Assembly (NCBI RefSeq): GCF_001429165.1
Contig: NZ_LMIR01000002.1
Coordinates: 1 to 64,000, forward strand
Length of the DNA: 64,000 nucleotides
Reading direction: 5' to 3'
Source of the DNA: Agromyces sp. Root81
GTDB lineage: Bacteria > Actinomycetota > Actinomycetes > Actinomycetales > Microbacteriaceae
The notes below the pieces were generated by a model. It had not been told where the DNA came from. It made no database searches and saw nothing but the letters and a program-made list of their open reading frames with translations. Each line of letters opens with the position of its first letter. Position 1 is the first letter of the stretch. The position numbers and the translations under genes were made by a program. Positions 10,534 to 64,000 of the stretch are shown here, one piece after another.

Positions 10534-11000
10534 CACGGCCCGCTCCCGGCCACATCGCGCCCGGCCGCGAACCGCGACACCGTCTGGGTCGCACTCGCTT
10601 CGAGCGGCACACTCGCCGCCTGATGGAGCGCGAGCACGTCGGGCACGAGCGGCAGCGTCACGCTCGCGGAGACGGAGACGGTCACGCGCTCCCCCGGGGC
10701 GAGGCAGTCGCCCGACGGCGAGCACGAAACGGTGACGGATGCCGCGTCGGCATCGACCCCGTAATCGTCGAGCGCGACCTGCACGGCGCGCTCCACCGCG
10801 GCATCCGCTGCCCCCGCATCGACCGCCTGCACGGCGACCCTCGCCGCCTGCCGTGCCGCGCCCTCGACGGCGAGCGCGCCGCCCTGAATCGCCGACATGG
10901 CGAGCACGAGGTAGACGAGCGGCACGAGCAGGATCATGCCGACCGTCAGGAACTCGAGCGAGGCCGAGCCCTCGTCAGTCGACAGTCTCGAGCGCAGCAT
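10533..11000 (-). CDS. TadE-like pseudopilin with Cys pair
   Basis: A 155-residue single-pass protein: DEGSASLEFLTVGMILLVPLVYLV is the TadE-like pilin helix with the conserved Glu, followed by an Ala-rich region and a CSPSGDC loop (likely disulfide) in the extracellular part. Member of the Tad pilus operon, overlapping the upstream gene by 26 nt. Expected role: minor pilin or assembly factor in the membrane. Confidence 0.8.
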   Translation of the reverse strand: MLRSRLSTDEGSASLEFLTVGMILLVPLVYLVLAMSAIQGGALAVEGAARQAARVAVQAVDAGAADAAVERAVQVALDDYGVDADAASVTVSCSPSGDCLAPGERVTVSVSASVTLPLVPDVLALHQAASVPLEASATQTVSRFAAGRDVAGSGP

Positions 11001-11406
11001 GCCCGGTCACCTCCAGCGCGCGGTCGACGCCGAGGAGCCCCACGACGGGGAGCGGCGCCCGCACCGTCACGGAGACCATGGCGATGCCGTCGATGGCGAT
11101 GATGCCGGACTCGATGTCGGCGGCGTAGTCGGCCGACACTGCCGAGCTGATGAGTTCTCGCGTACGCGCGATGCCCGCCCCCTCGCTCGATCCGGCGAGC
11201 GCGGCGTACCGTGCGCCCTCCGCCGCGGCGTCGAGCACGGTGTTGCGCACATGGAGTGCGAGCGCGAGCTGGATCACGGCGAGGGCGAGGACCGTCAGCA
11301 GGATGCTCACGAGCGTGAACTCCGCGACCGCCGAACCCCGTTCCTCACGCGCGAGCGCCGTGAGTCTCGCGACCCACGGGCCGGCGCCGCCGCTCTGCCG
11401 GCTCAG
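10975..11406 (-). CDS. TadE-like pseudopilin, apparent CTG start
   Basis: The 143-codon frame has EERGSAVAEFTLVSILLTVL, a classical TadE helix with catalytic-position Glu, then HVRNTVLDAAAEGARYAALAG. No ATG, GTG or TTG occurs in frame between the flp stop and the membrane helix. The only near-cognate candidate at the right place is CTG at 11406, which overlaps the flp TGA as CTGA, mirroring the ATGA couplings elsewhere in the window. Start therefore inferred, not certain. Role as other TadE proteins: minor pilin of the Tad/Flp pilus. Confidence 0.75.
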   Translation of the reverse strand: MSRQSGGAGPWVARLTALAREERGSAVAEFTLVSILLTVLALAVIQLALALHVRNTVLDAAAEGARYAALAGSSEGAGIARTRELISSAVSADYAADIESGIIAIDGIAMVSVTVRAPLPVVGLLGVDRALEVTGHAALETVD

Positions 11407-11570
11407 ACGCCGAGCACCCGGTTGATCGCCTGGTCGAAGACGCCCGACAGGGCGGGGCCCGCGAGGCCCCAGATGACGATCACCAAACCTGCGGTCATGA
11501 GCGTGATCAGCACCCAGCCGGGAACGTCGCCGCGTTCGTCGTCGAACCGCCGCTTGATCGAGTTGCGCAT
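11403..11570 (-). CDS. Flp-type pilin-like small protein
   Basis: A 55-residue protein: basic N-terminus (MRNSIKRRFDDERGD) then VPGWVLITLMTAGLVIVIWGLAG as a single hydrophobic helix and a short tail. Size, position between tadC and tadE and the helix fit an actinobacterial Flp/Tad major pilin or DUF4244-type protein, though the classic Glu-Tyr pair after the processing Gly is missing. It is too short to stand out by ORF length but is clearly coding. Confidence 0.8.
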   Translation of the reverse strand: MRNSIKRRFDDERGDVPGWVLITLMTAGLVIVIWGLAGPALSGVFDQAINRVLGV

Positions 11571-11624
11571 GTGAATCCCTTTCGTCGGAGCACGGAGCCG
11601 TGCGTTCGGTGTGGTCGCGAGCCA

Positions 11625-12578
11625 TCAGAAGCCCGCCTGCAGCACGAGGTATCCGGGGAACAAGGCGAACGCGATGGTCACCGGGAGGATCAGGAAGATC
11701 AGCGGAACGAGCATCGCGACCTCTTTGCGTCCCGCCTGCTCGATGATCGTGCGCTTGGCCTCCTCGCGGGCGTCTCCGGCCTGAGATCGCAGCACGGAGG
11801 CGAGGGGTGCGCCGCGCTCGAGGGCTCCGAGCACCTGGTCGAGCGCGCGGGTGAGCGCCGGATGATCGAGCTCGTCGCGGAGTCGGGCGAGCGCCTGCCC
11901 GAGCGGAACGCCGGTGCCGACGGATGCCACGGCCGCGGCGAACTCGGTCGGCAGCACGCCCGACCCAGCCCCCAGGCCCGCCACCCGCCGGATCGCGTCG
12001 AGCATGCCCTCCCCGGCGGTGAGGCTCAGGGTCAGGAACTCGAGCACCGTCGGCAACTCGGCCGAAATTCGCGCGAGTCGGCGCCGGGCCGCTCGCTGCA
12101 GCATCCAGTCGCGCATGACCGCGCCGAGCACCGCCGCGAGGAACGGCATGGCGACGCGGACGACCATCGGGAGTGCGCCGAACGACGGGGCGAGGATCGC
12201 CATCGCCGACGCGACGGCGAAGGCCCCGGCACTCCACGCGAGCTGCTCGCCGCGGAAACGCTCGACCGATGCGGTGGACCCCGCCTGCCGGAGGCGCCGT
12301 GCGATCGTGTCCGCTCCGCCCAGCCATTCCGAGACGACCGTGCGAACGGCCCGCCCGATCGGCCTGGCGAACAGGCCGAGCACCGGCGTCGGGTCGGCAG
12401 GCCGGTGCGCGAGCAGGGAGCGCGCTTCAGCCGAGATGTCGGCGACATAGGGCGCCACCCGCTCGAGGAGCCTCGGGCGGCCGATGCGCGGCACGGTCGA
12501 GATGACGAGCCACAGTCCGAGCCCGAGTACCGCACCGAAGACGAGCCCGAGTGCCGGCGTGCTGTTCAATGAAACCAT
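11625..12578 (-). CDS. Tad pilus inner-membrane platform protein TadC-like (GspF domain)
   Basis: A 317-residue protein with an N-terminal membrane segment (about 10-28), two helices at about 130-165, and the type II secretion F domain (about 175-305) with LTLSLTAGEGMLDAIRRVAG, followed by two terminal helices ending PGYLVLQAGF. TadC pairs with TadB to form the membrane platform driven by TadA. Overlaps tadB by 13 nt. An ATG at 12578 is chosen. Confidence 0.88.
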   Translation of the reverse strand: MVSLNSTPALGLVFGAVLGLGLWLVISTVPRIGRPRLLERVAPYVADISAEARSLLAHRPADPTPVLGLFARPIGRAVRTVVSEWLGGADTIARRLRQAGSTASVERFRGEQLAWSAGAFAVASAMAILAPSFGALPMVVRVAMPFLAAVLGAVMRDWMLQRAARRRLARISAELPTVLEFLTLSLTAGEGMLDAIRRVAGLGAGSGVLPTEFAAAVASVGTGVPLGQALARLRDELDHPALTRALDQVLGALERGAPLASVLRSQAGDAREEAKRTIIEQAGRKEVAMLVPLIFLILPVTIAFALFPGYLVLQAGF

Positions 12579-13435
12579 CGGCGCTCCTCGGGAAGGCGGC
12601 CGAGCGCGACCATCGCCTGGTAGGCCACGATCGTCACCACCACGCCGGCGATGATCAGGGCGGCGCCGGCCGCGGAGTCGTACGCGACGATCGCCTCGGG
12701 ACGCGATGCGAGCACCACGAGCAGCAGCCACGGCGCCGCGACGCCGAGACGCGCCGCGGCGCGGATCCACGATTGCCTGGCGACGACCTCGGCGCGAAGG
12801 GCCGCGTCTTCGCGGAGGTAGCCGGAGAGTCCCCGCAGCACCGCCGTCACGTCACTGCCACCGACCTCTCGCGCCATGCGCAGAGTCTCGAGGATGCGGT
12901 CGGCGACAGGGTCCGCGAGCGTGCCCTTCAAGCGATCGAGACACGCGCCGAAGTTGCCCGTGCGCCGGTACTCGTCATCGAACGCCGCGAATGCGGTTCT
13001 CGTCGATGACGGCCCGAGCTCGGCCAGCGCCCCCAGGCTGTCGGGCAGGGACATTCCGGCCCGCACGGACGAGACGAGGTGGTCGACCACATCGGGCCAG
13101 ACGGCGCGATTGGCGGCCCGGCGACGGGTGGCGCGGGCGTGTACGAGGAGCGGCACGAGCGCGGCGCCCAGCACGGTCGCCACGATCGTGAGCACGGGAA
13201 CCATGAAGACCGCCTGCGCGATCGCTCCCGCCACGAGCGCGAGGAACGCGGCGACGATCACGATGACCGCGATCGGCACCCCGGAGAGGCCCGCGAGCGC
13301 GAGCTCGTCGCGCACCCGACCAGTCATTGCGCCGCGGCGGCCGTCAGGTTCGGCCTTCGCAGGCCAGAGGAGCGGCGAGACGGTCAGCAGCACGCCGAGC
13401 CCGAGCAGCGCGCCCAGCACGAGACCGCTGCTCAT
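12566..13435 (-). CDS. Tad pilus inner-membrane platform protein TadB-like (GspF domain)
   Basis: A 289-residue protein with hydrophobic segments at about 5-22 and 52-98, the GspF domain (about 120-250) containing LVSSVRAGMSLPDSLGALAELGP, and two C-terminal membrane helices. First of the two platform subunits. Overlaps tadA by 4 nt and tadC by 13 nt, indicating one translationally coupled operon. Confidence 0.88.
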   Translation of the reverse strand: MSSGLVLGALLGLGVLLTVSPLLWPAKAEPDGRRGAMTGRVRDELALAGLSGVPIAVIVIVAAFLALVAGAIAQAVFMVPVLTIVATVLGAALVPLLVHARATRRRAANRAVWPDVVDHLVSSVRAGMSLPDSLGALAELGPSSTRTAFAAFDDEYRRTGNFGACLDRLKGTLADPVADRILETLRMAREVGGSDVTAVLRGLSGYLREDAALRAEVVARQSWIRAAARLGVAAPWLLLVVLASRPEAIVAYDSAAGAALIIAGVVVTIVAYQAMVALGRLPEERRWFH

Positions 13436-14664
13436 CGTGCCGCCGCCGCGAGCACGATGTCGGGATCGAGTCCGACGGCACGGTACTTCTCGAGTCGCGC
13501 AGGGGCCGTGCCTGTGCCGACCAGCTCACCCGCGCGAGTCACGAAGATCGCTTCCGCATCGACAGCCGATCCGGTCCATCCGCCCGTCGGTGCCGCGATC
13601 TCTGCGACCCGCCGATGCCCGTCGCGATCGATGGCGAGGTGCACCACGAGGTCGATGCAGCTCGCGACCGTCGGCACGACGAAGGCGGAGTCGATGTTGC
13701 GGCCGGCGAGGAGCGGCAGCGTGCAGAGCTTCGCGAGCGCGTCGCGCGCGGAGTTGGCGTGGATGGTGCACATCCCGGGCAGCCCCGAGTTGAGCGCGAT
13801 GAGCAGGTCGAGACTCTCGGCCTCACGCACCTCGCCGACGATGAGGCGGTCGGGGCGCATGCGAAGGGACTCTTTGATGAGGCGGCGCAGCGTGATCTCG
13901 CCGGTGCCCTCGAGGCTCGGCTGACGGCACTGCAGGGCCACGAGGTCGCGCACGTCGACGTCGAGCTCGAAGGTCTCCTCGACCGTGACCACGCGGTCGC
14001 CGGCGCGTCCGCCCGAGATGAGCGCGTTGAGCATCGTGGTCTTGCCCGTGTGGGTCGCGCCCGACACGAGGATGTTCGCGCCGGCGAGCACGCTCATGCG
14101 CAGGAACTCCGACGCGTGCGGGGTGAGCGAACCGAGCTCGATGAGCTGAGAGAGCGACCGGATACGGCGCTGGAACTTGCGGACGTTGACCGACCAGTGA
14201 GAGCGAGCCACGTCGGGAATGGCCACGTGCAGTCGCGACCCGTCGGGCAGCGTGGCGTCGACGAACGGCGACGAGAGGTCGACGCGCCGGCCCGAGTGCT
14301 GCAGCATCCGCTCGACGAGCTCGCGCACCTCGCGGTCCGAGAGCACGACCGTCGTCAGCTCCGCGACCCCGCGTCGCGCGACGAAGACCTTCGTCGGCGC
14401 GTTGATCCAGATCTCCTCGACCTCCGGGTCCTCGAAATACGGCTGCAGCTGCCCGTAGCCGGTGATCGAGGCGACGACCTCGCGCGTCGCGGCGGCCTCG
14501 TCGCCGAGCTGGGCGTGCGCCCCCGAGAGTGCGCGCTCGCTGTAGCGACGCACCTCTTCGTGGGCGTACCTGGCAGCAGCCGACTCGTCGCGCGTGAGAT
14601 CGACGCCGTCACGCAGCACCCGCGTGCGCACGCGGTCGGCGATGGTGCGCACGGGGTCGGTCAT
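13432..14664 (-). CDS. tadA: Tad pilus assembly ATPase TadA/CpaF
   Basis: Secretion ATPase of the VirB11/CpaF family that powers Flp pilus assembly. The 410-residue protein has an N-terminal domain, Walker A GATHTGKT at about 202-209, an Asp box, RPDRLIVGEVREAES (Walker B region) and MCTIHANSARDALAKL (His box). ATG 14664 (MTDPVRT) is preferred; ATGs at 14673 and 14676 would add 3-4 residues and none has a clear ribosome site. First gene of the tad operon; a perfect DnaA-box sequence lies 41 nt upstream. No cpaE or prepilin peptidase is adjacent; cpaE and cpaB genes are 12 kb away. Confidence 0.94.
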   Translation of the reverse strand: MTDPVRTIADRVRTRVLRDGVDLTRDESAAARYAHEEVRRYSERALSGAHAQLGDEAAATREVVASITGYGQLQPYFEDPEVEEIWINAPTKVFVARRGVAELTTVVLSDREVRELVERMLQHSGRRVDLSSPFVDATLPDGSRLHVAIPDVARSHWSVNVRKFQRRIRSLSQLIELGSLTPHASEFLRMSVLAGANILVSGATHTGKTTMLNALISGGRAGDRVVTVEETFELDVDVRDLVALQCRQPSLEGTGEITLRRLIKESLRMRPDRLIVGEVREAESLDLLIALNSGLPGMCTIHANSARDALAKLCTLPLLAGRNIDSAFVVPTVASCIDLVVHLAIDRDGHRRVAEIAAPTGGWTGSAVDAEAIFVTRAGELVGTGTAPARLEKYRAVGLDPDIVLAAAAR

Positions 14665-60755: not shown

Positions 60756-62051
60756 TCAGCGCACCGACTTCGCGAGGGTAGTGACTTCGGCATCCAGGAA
60801 CCCGTGAGGATCGCCCGATTCGATCGCCAGTTTCACCACTCCGAGCGCGTGCGAGTAGGCCGCGCCGATGGTGTCGAATGCCGCGTCGTCGTGCGCGGCC
60901 GAAACGTTGTGTGTTGCGATCATGAGCACTCCGCTCCGGCTCATCTCCTGCATGAACAGCACCTTCAGCAGATCGAGCTGTTCGCCGAGCTCTGGATTCC
61001 ACACGAGGAACGTCCACGTCGGATGGCCCGACAGGGAGACGACGTCGTTCATCTCGAGCGCGTCGATGGCGGCCTGGGCCCGATCGCGCACCGTCTCGCC
61101 GTTGCGGTACAGCGTTTCGATGGCATCGGTGTTCGCGATGCGATCGAGCACGACGTTCGCTGCGGTGAGCGAGAGGAGTTCTCCACTGAACGTGCCGGAG
61201 AAGAACACGCGCTCGAGCAGCATCATGAGGTCACGCCGGCCGGCGACGGCCGAGACCGGATAGCCGTTCGCCAACCCCTTGCCGAACGTCGAGAGGTCGG
61301 GAGTGACGCCGAAGTACTCTTGCGCGCCGCCCTTGGCGAAGCGGAATCCCGTGATCATCTCGTCGAACACGAGGATCGCGCCGTATCGGTCGGCGAGCGC
61401 GCGCAGCCCCTCGAGATAACCGGGTTTCGGGAACACGACATTCATCGGCTCGAGCACGATGGCGGCGGTCGGGGTCGCACGGAGCACCTGCTCGACTGCG
61501 TCGAGGTCATTGAACGGAACCGCGTGCACGAGCTCCTTCACCGCACCCGGAACACCCAGGTTGCGCGAATCCATCGAGGCGATCGTCCAGTCGTGCCAAC
61601 CGTGGTAGCCGCAGGTGATCACATGGTCGCGCCCGGTGAAGCCTCGGGCGACGCGCACGGCCGCGCTCGTCGCATCCGAACCGTTCTTGCCGAAGCGCAC
61701 CATCTCTGCGCTCGGCACCATGTCCACGAGCTTCTCGGCGACGACGGCCTCGATCGGATGCGTGAGCGAAATCGTCACGCCGCGGCTGAGCTGTTCGATC
61801 ACAGCCGCGGTGATCTCGGGGTCACCGTAGCCGAGCGTCACCGATGCGAGCGCGTTGACGAGGTCGACGTACTCATGGCCGTCGACGTCCCAGATGCGGC
61901 AGCCTTCAGCACGGTCTCCGTAGATCGGAGCAATGCCGGGCGGGAATGTGCCGCGGGACTTGCTGTAGGTCTGCGCCCCCAGGGGAATCGTCTTCTCTGC
62001 GCGCACGAGCTGCTCGATCGAACGTGCATAACGTGAGGTGTCGGATACCAC
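60756..62051 (-). CDS. class III PLP aminotransferase (glutamate-1-semialdehyde aminomutase-like), surface-glycan locus
   Basis: A 431-residue class III aminotransferase: VDGHEYVDLVNALASVTLGYGDPEI, RFGKNGSDATSAAVRVAR, CGYHGWHDW, FDEMITGFRF and the PLP lysine Lys258 in LSTFGKGLANGYP. Similar to HemL in fold, but its place beside a CMP-sugar synthetase and a capsule-type protein points to a role in amino-sugar synthesis for a surface polysaccharide rather than heme (inference). GTG 62051 follows GGGAG with 6-nt spacing. Divergent from the capsule-like gene. Confidence 0.85.
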   Translation of the reverse strand: MVSDTSRYARSIEQLVRAEKTIPLGAQTYSKSRGTFPPGIAPIYGDRAEGCRIWDVDGHEYVDLVNALASVTLGYGDPEITAAVIEQLSRGVTISLTHPIEAVVAEKLVDMVPSAEMVRFGKNGSDATSAAVRVARGFTGRDHVITCGYHGWHDWTIASMDSRNLGVPGAVKELVHAVPFNDLDAVEQVLRATPTAAIVLEPMNVVFPKPGYLEGLRALADRYGAILVFDEMITGFRFAKGGAQEYFGVTPDLSTFGKGLANGYPVSAVAGRRDLMMLLERVFFSGTFSGELLSLTAANVVLDRIANTDAIETLYRNGETVRDRAQAAIDALEMNDVVSLSGHPTWTFLVWNPELGEQLDLLKVLFMQEMSRSGVLMIATHNVSAAHDDAAFDTIGAAYSHALGVVKLAIESGDPHGFLDAEVTTLAKSVR

Positions 62052-62248
62052 TGATGCTCCCTTGGTGTTCGGCCGGTCCCGTTCGCGCCAGCGGCGGCCT
62101 CCGTGGTCTGGTTCTTCCGCGTCGTCGTGGTGCGCACACAGCCGACGTTCACAGCGGCGTCGAGCTGTGTCGCGTGGAATCCATAGTATCTTTGCGGCGG
62201 TATCGGGACGACATCACGACCTTCCCGAGCCGCAGAAATGGAGCTGAC

Positions 62249-63715
62249 ATGACCACGGCTGTAGTGCTGATCACGACCTACGACCCGTCGTGGCTGTCGA
62301 TCTTCGACCAGGTCACCCGCGACGAGTTGGCGGCAGGTCATCGTGTCATCGCGCTGGACGCGACTGCGCTCCTCACCGCCCCGGTCGACAGCTACGACCG
62401 CGCTGTCCTCCGCGGCCTGAGGATCGAGCATCCGGGCCACGATCTGCCGGAGCGCATGCGGGAGCTCGGTGCCGAGTACCGGCACATCGACGTCGCCGAC
62501 ACCGACACGTCGCTCCTGGGGGACGATCTCGAATCCGAACTCGACATCGCCGTCCAGTCCGCGTTGATCACGTTCTACCGCACAGACCGGCCCGACCTGT
62601 CGCGCCGACGGATCGCACGGGTCGCCGATGGCCTCCGACGCGAGGGGCGCGCGATCTACCGACTGATCGGCCGGCTGCACGCAGAGGAACCGGACCTCGC
62701 CATCGGCTACGTCGCCAACGGACGCTTCCCGAACCAGAAGCTTGCGACACTCGCCTACCGCAATGCCGGCCTGATCACGAAGCACCTGGAGAAGGGCGAG
62801 GGCCCGAAGCGCGCGTACGTGCAGGACTACGCCCCGCAGGACCGGCTCGGCTCCCAGGGGAGCGTCGATTCGGTACTCGCGCGCCTCGCCGACGCGGAGG
62901 TCGAGCAGATCGCGGACTCGTGGCTCGCCAAGCGTGCTCCGGCTCATGACTCTCGCAACGAGTTCTCCGCCCTCTGGAGCGACCAGATCCCGTCGAGGAT
63001 CGGCGTTTGGCGCACGGAAGGCGAGAAGATCGTCGGCTTCTTCACCTCGTCTCAGGACGAGTTCCAATTCCTCGGTCCCGAGTGGCACCTCCACGATTGG
63101 GCCGACCAGTTCCAGGCGTTCGACGCGATGCTGACGCGATTCGAAGCCGACGGCTACCGTGCGTTCCTCCGTGTGCACCCCAACCTGGCCACGAAGGAAC
63201 ACGGATGCTTCTCACGCGAGCGCGAGGGAATCCGACGGCTCGCCGAGCTTCATCCGGAACTCGTGGTCATCTGGCATGACGATGACGCGAACACGTACGA
63301 ACTCCTCGGAGCATGCGACGCCGTGGTGGTCTGGGATTCCACGGTCGGCCTCGAAGCGAGTGCCCGCGGCATCCCGGTGTGGGCCACCGCGACGACTCGC
63401 TACGGCCTCATCGCCGACGTGCGGGAAGTCCTCTCGGCCGACTCGCTCGCCGTCGCCGGAACCGCTCCATGGCCCGTCGATCCGCGCGGCTCCAAGCGAT
63501 TCATCGCCTACCTCGTCGAGCGAGACGAGGACATCACGACCGCACCCGCCGACTGGATGTCCTGGAATGCCGGCAGCCCACCGCTCGGCGTCCGGCTCGC
63601 CGCAGTCACGGTGAGCGGAGCGATCCCATCACGGGTCGAAGCGGTCCGGTCACTGGTCGATGTCTACCGGCACCGCGGGCGACAGGCGAACCTGCGGGCC
63701 ATCCGTCGGCGCTGA
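62249..63715 (+). CDS. capsule polysaccharide synthesis-like protein
   Basis: A 488-residue cytosolic protein without membrane segments. The C-terminal half has GYRAFLRVHPN, LAELHPELVVIWHDDDANTYELLGACDAVVVWDSTVGLEASARGIPVW, the donor-binding pattern of capsule-synthesis (PF05159/Kdo-transferase-like) and epimerase-type GT-B folds. It probably transfers or processes a sugar of the nearby locus. GGAG 6 nt before ATG 62249. Confidence 0.75.
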   Translation: MTTAVVLITTYDPSWLSIFDQVTRDELAAGHRVIALDATALLTAPVDSYDRAVLRGLRIEHPGHDLPERMRELGAEYRHIDVADTDTSLLGDDLESELDIAVQSALITFYRTDRPDLSRRRIARVADGLRREGRAIYRLIGRLHAEEPDLAIGYVANGRFPNQKLATLAYRNAGLITKHLEKGEGPKRAYVQDYAPQDRLGSQGSVDSVLARLADAEVEQIADSWLAKRAPAHDSRNEFSALWSDQIPSRIGVWRTEGEKIVGFFTSSQDEFQFLGPEWHLHDWADQFQAFDAMLTRFEADGYRAFLRVHPNLATKEHGCFSREREGIRRLAELHPELVVIWHDDDANTYELLGACDAVVVWDSTVGLEASARGIPVWATATTRYGLIADVREVLSADSLAVAGTAPWPVDPRGSKRFIAYLVERDEDITTAPADWMSWNAGSPPLGVRLAAVTVSGAIPSRVEAVRSLVDVYRHRGRQANLRAIRRR

Positions 63716-63718
63716 CGA

Positions 63719-64000
63719 TCAGATTCGAGAGCCGTCGTTTCGCGCGAGGTCGTCAGACGTCCGTGCGAGCTCGGGGCGGCGTTCGAGGAGCGAGAGGATC
63801 TCGGACTGACCGAACGGCCGACGGGAGTCGTAGAGGGCCGCGTAGACCGCAGCAGCGAACTCGAGGTCGTCGGGGACGTCGACGGTCCAGCGCAGCTCCG
63901 AGCGGTCGGGGACCTGAGCGACGTTCAGGAGCGAGAATCGATCGGGTCGTGAGTACATTCCGAGGGTCACATGCTCCCGCTCCCGCGTCGACAAGTCGAG
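63719..64000 (-). CDS. CMP-sugar (acylneuraminate/SpsF-like) cytidylyltransferase, C-terminal part
   Basis: The last 93 residues of a protein that starts beyond the window. EREHVTLGMYSRPDRFSLLNV and LRWTVDVPDDLEFAAAVYAAL are the usual C-terminus of NeuA/SpsF-type cytidylyltransferases, which activate nonulosonic or related acids with CTP. Convergent with the capsule-like gene by 3 nt. Only the C-terminal end is visible; the catalytic N-terminus is outside. Confidence 0.8.
   Translation of the reverse strand, partial: LDLSTREREHVTLGMYSRPDRFSLLNVAQVPDRSELRWTVDVPDDLEFAAAVYAALYDSRRPFGQSEILSLLERRPELARTSDDLARNDGSRI

Follow-up and report, generated by a model that had tools for sequence, protein, structure and literature searches.

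The window analysed here, 64,000 nucleotides of Agromyces sp. Root81, comprises positions 1 to 64000 of the contig we call C2 (NZ_LMIR01000002.1; 1,992,400 bases), in a genome of 4,158,469 bases on five contigs. At its far edge lie genes for a HemL-like class III aminotransferase, a capsule-type protein (CapGT1) and an SpsF-type cytidine monophosphate (CMP)-sugar synthetase, the last of which runs out of the window. A sequence-only reading had named all three, and Pfam matches together with codon-position G+C confirm that they are present; the codon-position signal supports each as coding and is clearest for the aminotransferase. The window is the start of contig C2, which let us follow the DNA past 64 kb, as far as 112 kb. 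The locus does continue, as the earlier reading had expected, with pseudaminic-type and then legionaminic-type genes occupying 64 to 81 kb (Table 1). The sugar-synthesis genes that it had proposed looking for are there, including NeuB and NeuC, both in the legionaminic-type set, and a flippase-like protein, and these pathway genes bear out its view of the edge genes as part of a locus for an amino or nonulosonic acid sugar.

The pathway genes were scored against NCBIfam profiles with curated cut-offs. PseB (478.7 bits, cut-off 407.75), PseG (159.6, cut-off 153.55) and PseI (455.1, cut-off 340.25) all lie above, PseC falls just below (409.5 against 423.5), and the PseH-like protein reaches 49.9 against 93.1. 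That these five build a pseudaminic acid (Pse) backbone is strongly supported, as far as sequence can tell, and family membership establishes what PseB, PseG, PseI and the class III pyridoxal 5'-phosphate (PLP) enzyme are at the level of their protein families. The set shares PseB, PseG, PseI, a slightly sub-threshold PseC and a PseH-like protein with the textbook PseB-C-H-G-I-F pathway to Pse5Ac7Ac. It differs in having an SpsF-type enzyme in place of PseF, the PseF profile TIGR03584 giving that enzyme only 25.3 bits (cut-off 205.7), and in having two extra genes, for an aldo-keto reductase (AKR) and the HemL-like protein. Operon-like 4-base overlaps join the synthetase to the AKR and the AKR to PseG.

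Immediately next to the pseudaminic genes, this actinobacterium has a legionaminic-type pathway, presumably of the PtmE/PtmF/PtmA kind. LegC, NeuC and NeuD score above cut-off, with LegB (474.8 against 475) and NeuB (391 against 399.65) narrowly below. The best explanation is that this locus directs the synthesis and assembly of a surface glycopolymer containing two nonulosonic (sialic-acid-like) acids. Such genes had been called unusual in Gram-positive actinobacteria. This holds within the window's family, where PseI exceeds its cut-off in only 6 of 150 genomes, but less well beyond it, as excerpts of PMC7831098 and PMC6113628 describe teichulosonic acids, which are wall polymers of nonulosonates, from Streptomyces and Kribbella.

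One explanation of the HemL-like protein is that it is a second glutamate-1-semialdehyde (GSA) aminomutase serving heme synthesis. Its predicted model (pLDDT, the predicted local distance difference test score, of 79.7) does find GSA aminomutases as its closest solved structures, PctV and FumI being among the next. However, it scores 251.1 bits on the hemL profile TIGR00713, which has a cut-off of 527.3, and the separate hemL for which the sequence-only reading had advised a check lies elsewhere on C2, at 543.7 bits. Both the PF00202 match and the PLP lysine K258, conserved in 18 of 18 Pse-linked alignment rows, make the protein a class III aminotransferase, and the PLP residues D230, Y149, T287 and G124 are equally conserved. 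For the Arabidopsis GSA aminomutase, an excerpt of PMC4909244 gives Trp68, Glu148, the Ser164 loop and Tyr302 as substrate or gating residues. By our own mapping of columns onto Arabidopsis numbering, all 18 rows have leucine in the Trp68 column (L68) and phenylalanine in the Tyr302 column (F283), and alignment to 5i92 places gaps adjoining Glu148 and within the gating loop of the HemL-like protein. Arg32, to which we presume a role in GSA aminomutase, corresponds to lysine, again in 18 of 18. Judged from these columns, the protein appears to lack the substrate and gating residues of the aminomutase.

A tree of 62 rows, for which transketolase-linked sequences (see below) were thinned beforehand to every third (21), points the same way. 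Thirteen HemL sequences form one clade (support 100/100), 16 of the 18 rows labelled Pse-linked form a second (100/97), and the transketolase-linked type forms a third (100/98). L040 and L041, also labelled Pse-linked, lie outside the Pse clade and closer to the transketolase-linked one. Among 12 genomes with Pse-linked HemL-like proteins, hemL is above cut-off in five and at 527.0 against 527.3 in one. None is above it in the remaining six (by title four alphaproteobacterial, one Micavibrio and one Omnitrophota), an absence that is weak evidence because many are metagenome-assembled genomes. With the true hemL elsewhere, the substrate residues changed and the clade distinct, we rejected a second hemL for heme as extremely improbable. 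Clade, residues and the linkage described next instead lend support to the earlier suggestion that the HemL-like protein may act on a sugar.

Among the 150 genomes of the window's family, HemL-like proteins of at least 64% identity occur in four of the six with PseI above cut-off and in none of the 144 others (Fisher p 7e-7, relatedness ignored). Three further genomes have matches at about 40%, with no Pse neighbours in the two contexts viewed. The order AKR-SpsF-HemL is identical in the three relatives; in two of them the module shares a contig with PseG, PseB-C-I, PseH, both capsule-type proteins and the Qdt-like genes discussed below, and in the third it ends with its 3.2-kb contig. As for the two PseI genomes without a HemL-like gene, G041 has an AKR and SpsF, and in G066 the PseI contig is only 4.1 kb long.

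The association extends well beyond this family, and Pse clusters with AKR-SpsF-HemL occur among Actinomycetota, Gammaproteobacteria and Bacteroidia. When genome contigs were scanned with the HemL-like protein, at least 586 loci matched, and 14 of the best 80 were counted as Pse-linked, with PseB in 11 and a NeuB-family gene in 12; their titles assign them to Actinomycetota, Gamma- and Alphaproteobacteria, Leptospirales, Micavibrio, Brocadiaceae and Omnitrophota. Locus L055 is titled Flavobacteriales, and its class, which we took by inference to be Bacteroidia, has the three genes in the same order in 3 of 395 genomes (E 1e-104), and a family of 46 yielded one more; all four of these loci keep the AKR-SpsF-HemL order and have a PseI-like match, and three have PseB. 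At L046, a single open reading frame fuses SpsF and the HemL-like protein. The AKR residues D45, Y50, K71 and H106, which we take to be the catalytic tetrad, are invariant wherever covered (15 to 18 of 18 rows). A plasmid search with the AKR at E 1e-30 gave no match; one with the HemL-like protein at E 1e-40 matched 184 records, none of them reaching 60% identity. Four of these plasmid regions were viewed: three (two from haloarchaea, one from Qingshengfaniella) contained no annotated NeuB-family gene, and the fourth, from Methylomagnum, has the split-transketolase cassette described below.

As a control we turned to the family of a Colwellia locus (246 genomes, 160 with PseI above cut-off) and compared 40 stretches, each 19.9 kb long and spanning PseI, drawn from 39 genomes hand-picked for long contigs. 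Seven have a HemL-like gene, six of them at 56-71% identity. An AKR is present in all seven, against 1 of the 33 HemL-negative stretches (p 4e-7), and an SpsF-type synthetase in all seven against 2 of 33 (p 2e-6), relatedness being ignored in both tests; in the HemL-negative stretches the synthetase was best matched by a LegF-like query in 30, and in one none was matched. The order in L163 and L164 is PseB-PseC-AKR-SpsF-HemL-PseG-PseH-PseI with short gaps, so that the interval from PseB to PseI holds the textbook genes together with AKR and HemL, SpsF standing in for PseF. A count of acyltransferases was also considered as an indicator of a third amine and was dropped, as L163 and L164 have only PseH, and this speaks neither for nor against a free amine.

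When an oxidoreductase and a transaminase occur together, the simplest outcome is that one hydroxyl is swapped for an amine. PseH acetylates the C7 nitrogen before PseI acts, and the free hydroxyls of ring-form Pse are those at C4 and C8. We suggest that the AKR would oxidise a free hydroxyl of pseudaminic acid, most likely that at C8, and that the HemL-like PLP enzyme would aminate the resulting ketone to give an amino-pseudaminic (5,7,8-triamino) acid. The SpsF-type enzyme would then activate the amino sugar with CMP, its order relative to amination being our presumption, and a capsule-type transferase would add the activated sugar to the glycan. The SpsF-HemL fusion of L046, an AKR-SpsF fusion in Vibrio and the use of SpsF for PseF all place the modification near CMP activation. 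C8 is preferred because an 8-amino sugar of this type has been reported, the O-antigen of Flexibacter maritimus containing a 5,7-N-acylated 8-amino-3,5,7,8,9-pentadeoxy-manno-nonulosonic acid (PMC3210612, excerpt). It is very likely that the AKR and the HemL-like protein act in the pseudaminic pathway, and there is about an even chance that the outcome is an added amine. We would put AKR oxidation followed by HemL-like amination, as read from the genes, a little short of even, and the choice of C8 is tentative and somewhat more apt to be wrong than right.

Several observations weigh against this proposal. AKRs typically reduce rather than oxidise. The pairing is loose across the 14 Pse-linked loci: the window AKR as query found a counterpart in only five, a Gfo/Idh-type protein adjoins HemL in three, and six have no adjoining oxidoreductase, one of these being ended by its contig. 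L034 has an AKR and a HemL-like gene with no SpsF match, and G041 and L192 carry an AKR without a HemL-like gene. The 40 control clusters represent a hand-picked sample of a single family, and L193, one of the seven HemL-positives, matches at just 30%. The review that reports the Flexibacter maritimus 8-amino sugar gives its N-acyl positions two ways, with the C8 configuration undetermined (PMC3210612, excerpt). Among the papers listed by our literature searches none showed an enzyme for a triamino nonulosonate, and we found no described gene for the amination step.

Alternatively, the HemL-like enzyme could supply an acid, amino-acyl or similar, for an acyltransferase to place on a Pse nitrogen, with the backbone left ordinary. 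Many Pse variants do vary in their N-acyl groups, and L032 and L036 have an extra GNAT between AKR and SpsF, plus formyltransferases. However, L163 and L164 have an AKR and a HemL-like gene yet PseH as their sole acyltransferase in the PseB-PseI interval (the flanks were not searched for others), and the L046 fusion to a CMP-sugar synthetase indicates that the sugar itself is the target, so we consider acid attachment unlikely.

We also regard it as rather unlikely that the AKR and the HemL-like protein are an isomerising pair, an aminomutase moving a nitrogen or an epimerising system, whose product would be isomeric with Pse5Ac7Ac instead of being a triamino sugar. GSA aminomutase does isomerise its substrate (PMC4909244, excerpt). 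Moreover, the Pse cluster of Vibrio sp. B9-25K2 resembles ours in its PseB, PseC, PseG, PseH domain and AKR fused to an SpsF-like domain, and its product is a di-N-acetyl Pse (PseAc2) that differs from Moritella's in tandem mass spectrometry and that the authors take for an epimer or for N-acetyls on other carbons (PMC7371886, excerpt). However, the excerpt names no HemL-like gene in that cluster, where a dehydrogenase comes after the AKR-SpsF fusion; this counts against isomerisation by the pair, and the missing gene tells against our amination proposal as well. Furthermore, the C7 nitrogen should already be acetylated by PseH, leaving no free amine to move, and both clusters with an AKR but no HemL-like gene have an adjoining short-chain dehydrogenase/reductase (SDR) that would account for epimers. 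In L192, the only HemL-negative control cluster with an AKR, the SDR lies right behind it and shares 41% identity with the one that flanks the AKR in the actinobacterial G041. SDR-type matches also occur in 18 further stretches of the 40, all lacking both AKR and HemL-like genes, and in none of the seven HemL-positive ones; given this background, an SDR by itself proves nothing. AKR and SDR genes adjacent to each other without a HemL-like gene are possibly an epimerising pair, and we infer from three cases that an AKR with an SDR epimerises and an AKR with a HemL-like protein aminates. The two SDR-bearing clusters fit a keto intermediate that is either aminated or re-reduced, in keeping with the amination proposal.

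Near the Pse module, here and in two relatives, lie cupin and DegT genes that we presume to be QdtA-like and QdtB-like, suggesting that the same glycan contains a 3-amino-3,6-dideoxyhexose. The HemL-like protein might serve such a sugar of the locus instead of Pse. However, dideoxyhexose amination has its own DegT enzyme, and the HemL-like protein recurs in Pse clusters such as L032, L033 and L036, where Qdt-like queries gave no separate place; we consider a role in this other sugar improbable.

A chemical parallel for the proposed amination of Pse is 8-amino-3,8-dideoxy-octulosonic acid (Kdo8N), an eight-carbon sugar whose oxidase-aminotransferase pair, KdnB and KdnA, comes from other enzyme families. 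Like the proposed sugar, Kdo8N of Shewanella is an ulosonic acid aminated at C8 (PMC3210612, excerpt). By annotation, not sequence, the O-antigen cluster Lp6_762-775 of Legionella pneumophila serogroups 6/12 is similar to ours, with a GNAT, PseG, GSA aminomutase, cytidylyltransferase, AKR, DegT, CapD, capsule protein and NeuB in one run; it differs in an extra acetyltransferase, HisF and HisH. In the excerpt of PMC3694923 from which this comparison is drawn, the AKR is annotated as aryl-alcohol dehydrogenase-like (as aldo/keto reductase in serogroup 12), and the aminomutase-like gene is listed without an assigned role.

A sister family of HemL-like proteins lies in a cassette of SpsF, transketolase N half, transketolase C half, HemL-like, SDR, HAD and NeuB genes that is conserved in Bacteroidota, Ignavibacteriota, Chloroflexota and others. 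Partners were counted in the 41 of 62 transketolase-type loci that have 6 kb on both sides: SDR in 39, NeuB in 39, SpsF in 38, the transketolase C half in 37 and N half in 36, HAD phosphatase in 30, and all six in 28. Pfam supports both halves, NeuB and HAD in example loci, and none of 13 Pse-linked loci tested has the transketolase halves. The Methylomagnum plasmid has the same cassette by annotation, and one family has HemL-like proteins of this grade in 28 of its 222 genomes. The cassette looks like an undescribed CMP-ulosonate pathway, and our literature search found no matching paper; the sister family possibly serves another ulosonate pathway. A class III aminotransferase family dedicated to ulosonic acids, making 8-amino-pseudaminic acid with an AKR and, in the sister family, serving a CMP-amino-ulosonate pathway that needs no uridine diphosphate (UDP)-sugar, is a doubtful but conceivable extension.

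The capsule-type proteins may be the nonulosonate transferases. The start of CapGT1 was set at an ATG preceded by GGAG; its Pfam match barely exceeds the cut-off, and its syntenic homologues are 48-54% identical. Its predicted model (pLDDT 59.4) is too poor to use, with weak matches led by UDP-N-acetylglucosamine 2-epimerases and glycosyltransferases and the KpsC N-domain at rank 49. In the Rhodoglobus locus L031, whose genes are akin to those here, two copies of the CapGT1 homologue are fused in tandem within one 1002-residue reading frame. Large secreted-looking proteins with similar N-terminal regions, compared by eye in translation, lie near the Pse clusters of three genomes. A UDP-galactopyranose mutase gene lies farther along C2, past the GlfT2-like transferase.

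Table 1. Features of the locus on contig C2 and of loci compared with it (positions on C2 unless a locus or genome is named)
Feature	Position	Strand	Remarks
HemL-like class III aminotransferase, proposed nonulosonate aminotransferase	60756-62051	-	PF00202 169.2 bits
Capsule-type protein CapGT1, proposed nonulosonate transferase	62249-63715	+	PF05159 23.7 bits, cut-off 20
SpsF-type CMP-sugar synthetase	63719-64453	-	PF02348 103.2 bits; in window only 63719-64000, 3' part
AKR	64450-65328	-	beyond window
PseG	65325-66374	-	beyond window
PseB	66445-67425	+	beyond window
PseC	67428-68558	+	beyond window
PseI	68611-69654	+	beyond window
PseH-like GNAT	69659-70159	-	beyond window
Capsule-type protein CapGT2	70156-71958	-	beyond window
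Acetyltransferase	72017-72700		between CapGT2 and legionaminic-type set
Legionaminic-type genes	72776-80567	+	LegB, LegC, NeuC, NeuB, NeuD, PtmE-like, PtmF-like, CMP-sugar synthetase; Ptm labels (to 81389) presumed
SDR	80571-81389	+	closes legionaminic-type set
Two Wzy_C proteins, flippase-like protein, GlfT2-like transferase	81477-87465	+	
Cupin and DegT genes	91681-93270		presumably QdtA-/QdtB-like
Secreted-looking proteins	100957-103248; L031:11353-14658; G041 stretch 10836-13544		
True hemL	1656417-1657691		
CapGT1 homologue, tandem fusion	L031:14660-17668		Rhodoglobus
AKR + SDR pairs	L192:6325-10539; G041 (L112, about 12612-14250)		Pse clusters of two phyla
Transketolase-type loci	L044-L110 (62 so labelled), L021		examples L051:7337-13576, L066:7247-13702

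The gene set is an altered form of the pseudaminic acid pathway, in an actinobacterium that has another nonulosonate pathway right next to it. If the proposed amination is correct, the misleading annotation of a heme gene in a sugar cluster could serve in several phyla to predict a sialic-acid-like sugar with an amino modification. It would also account for the use of an SpsF-type CMP-sugar synthetase in these clusters, and would provide candidate genes for a sugar known just from chemistry.

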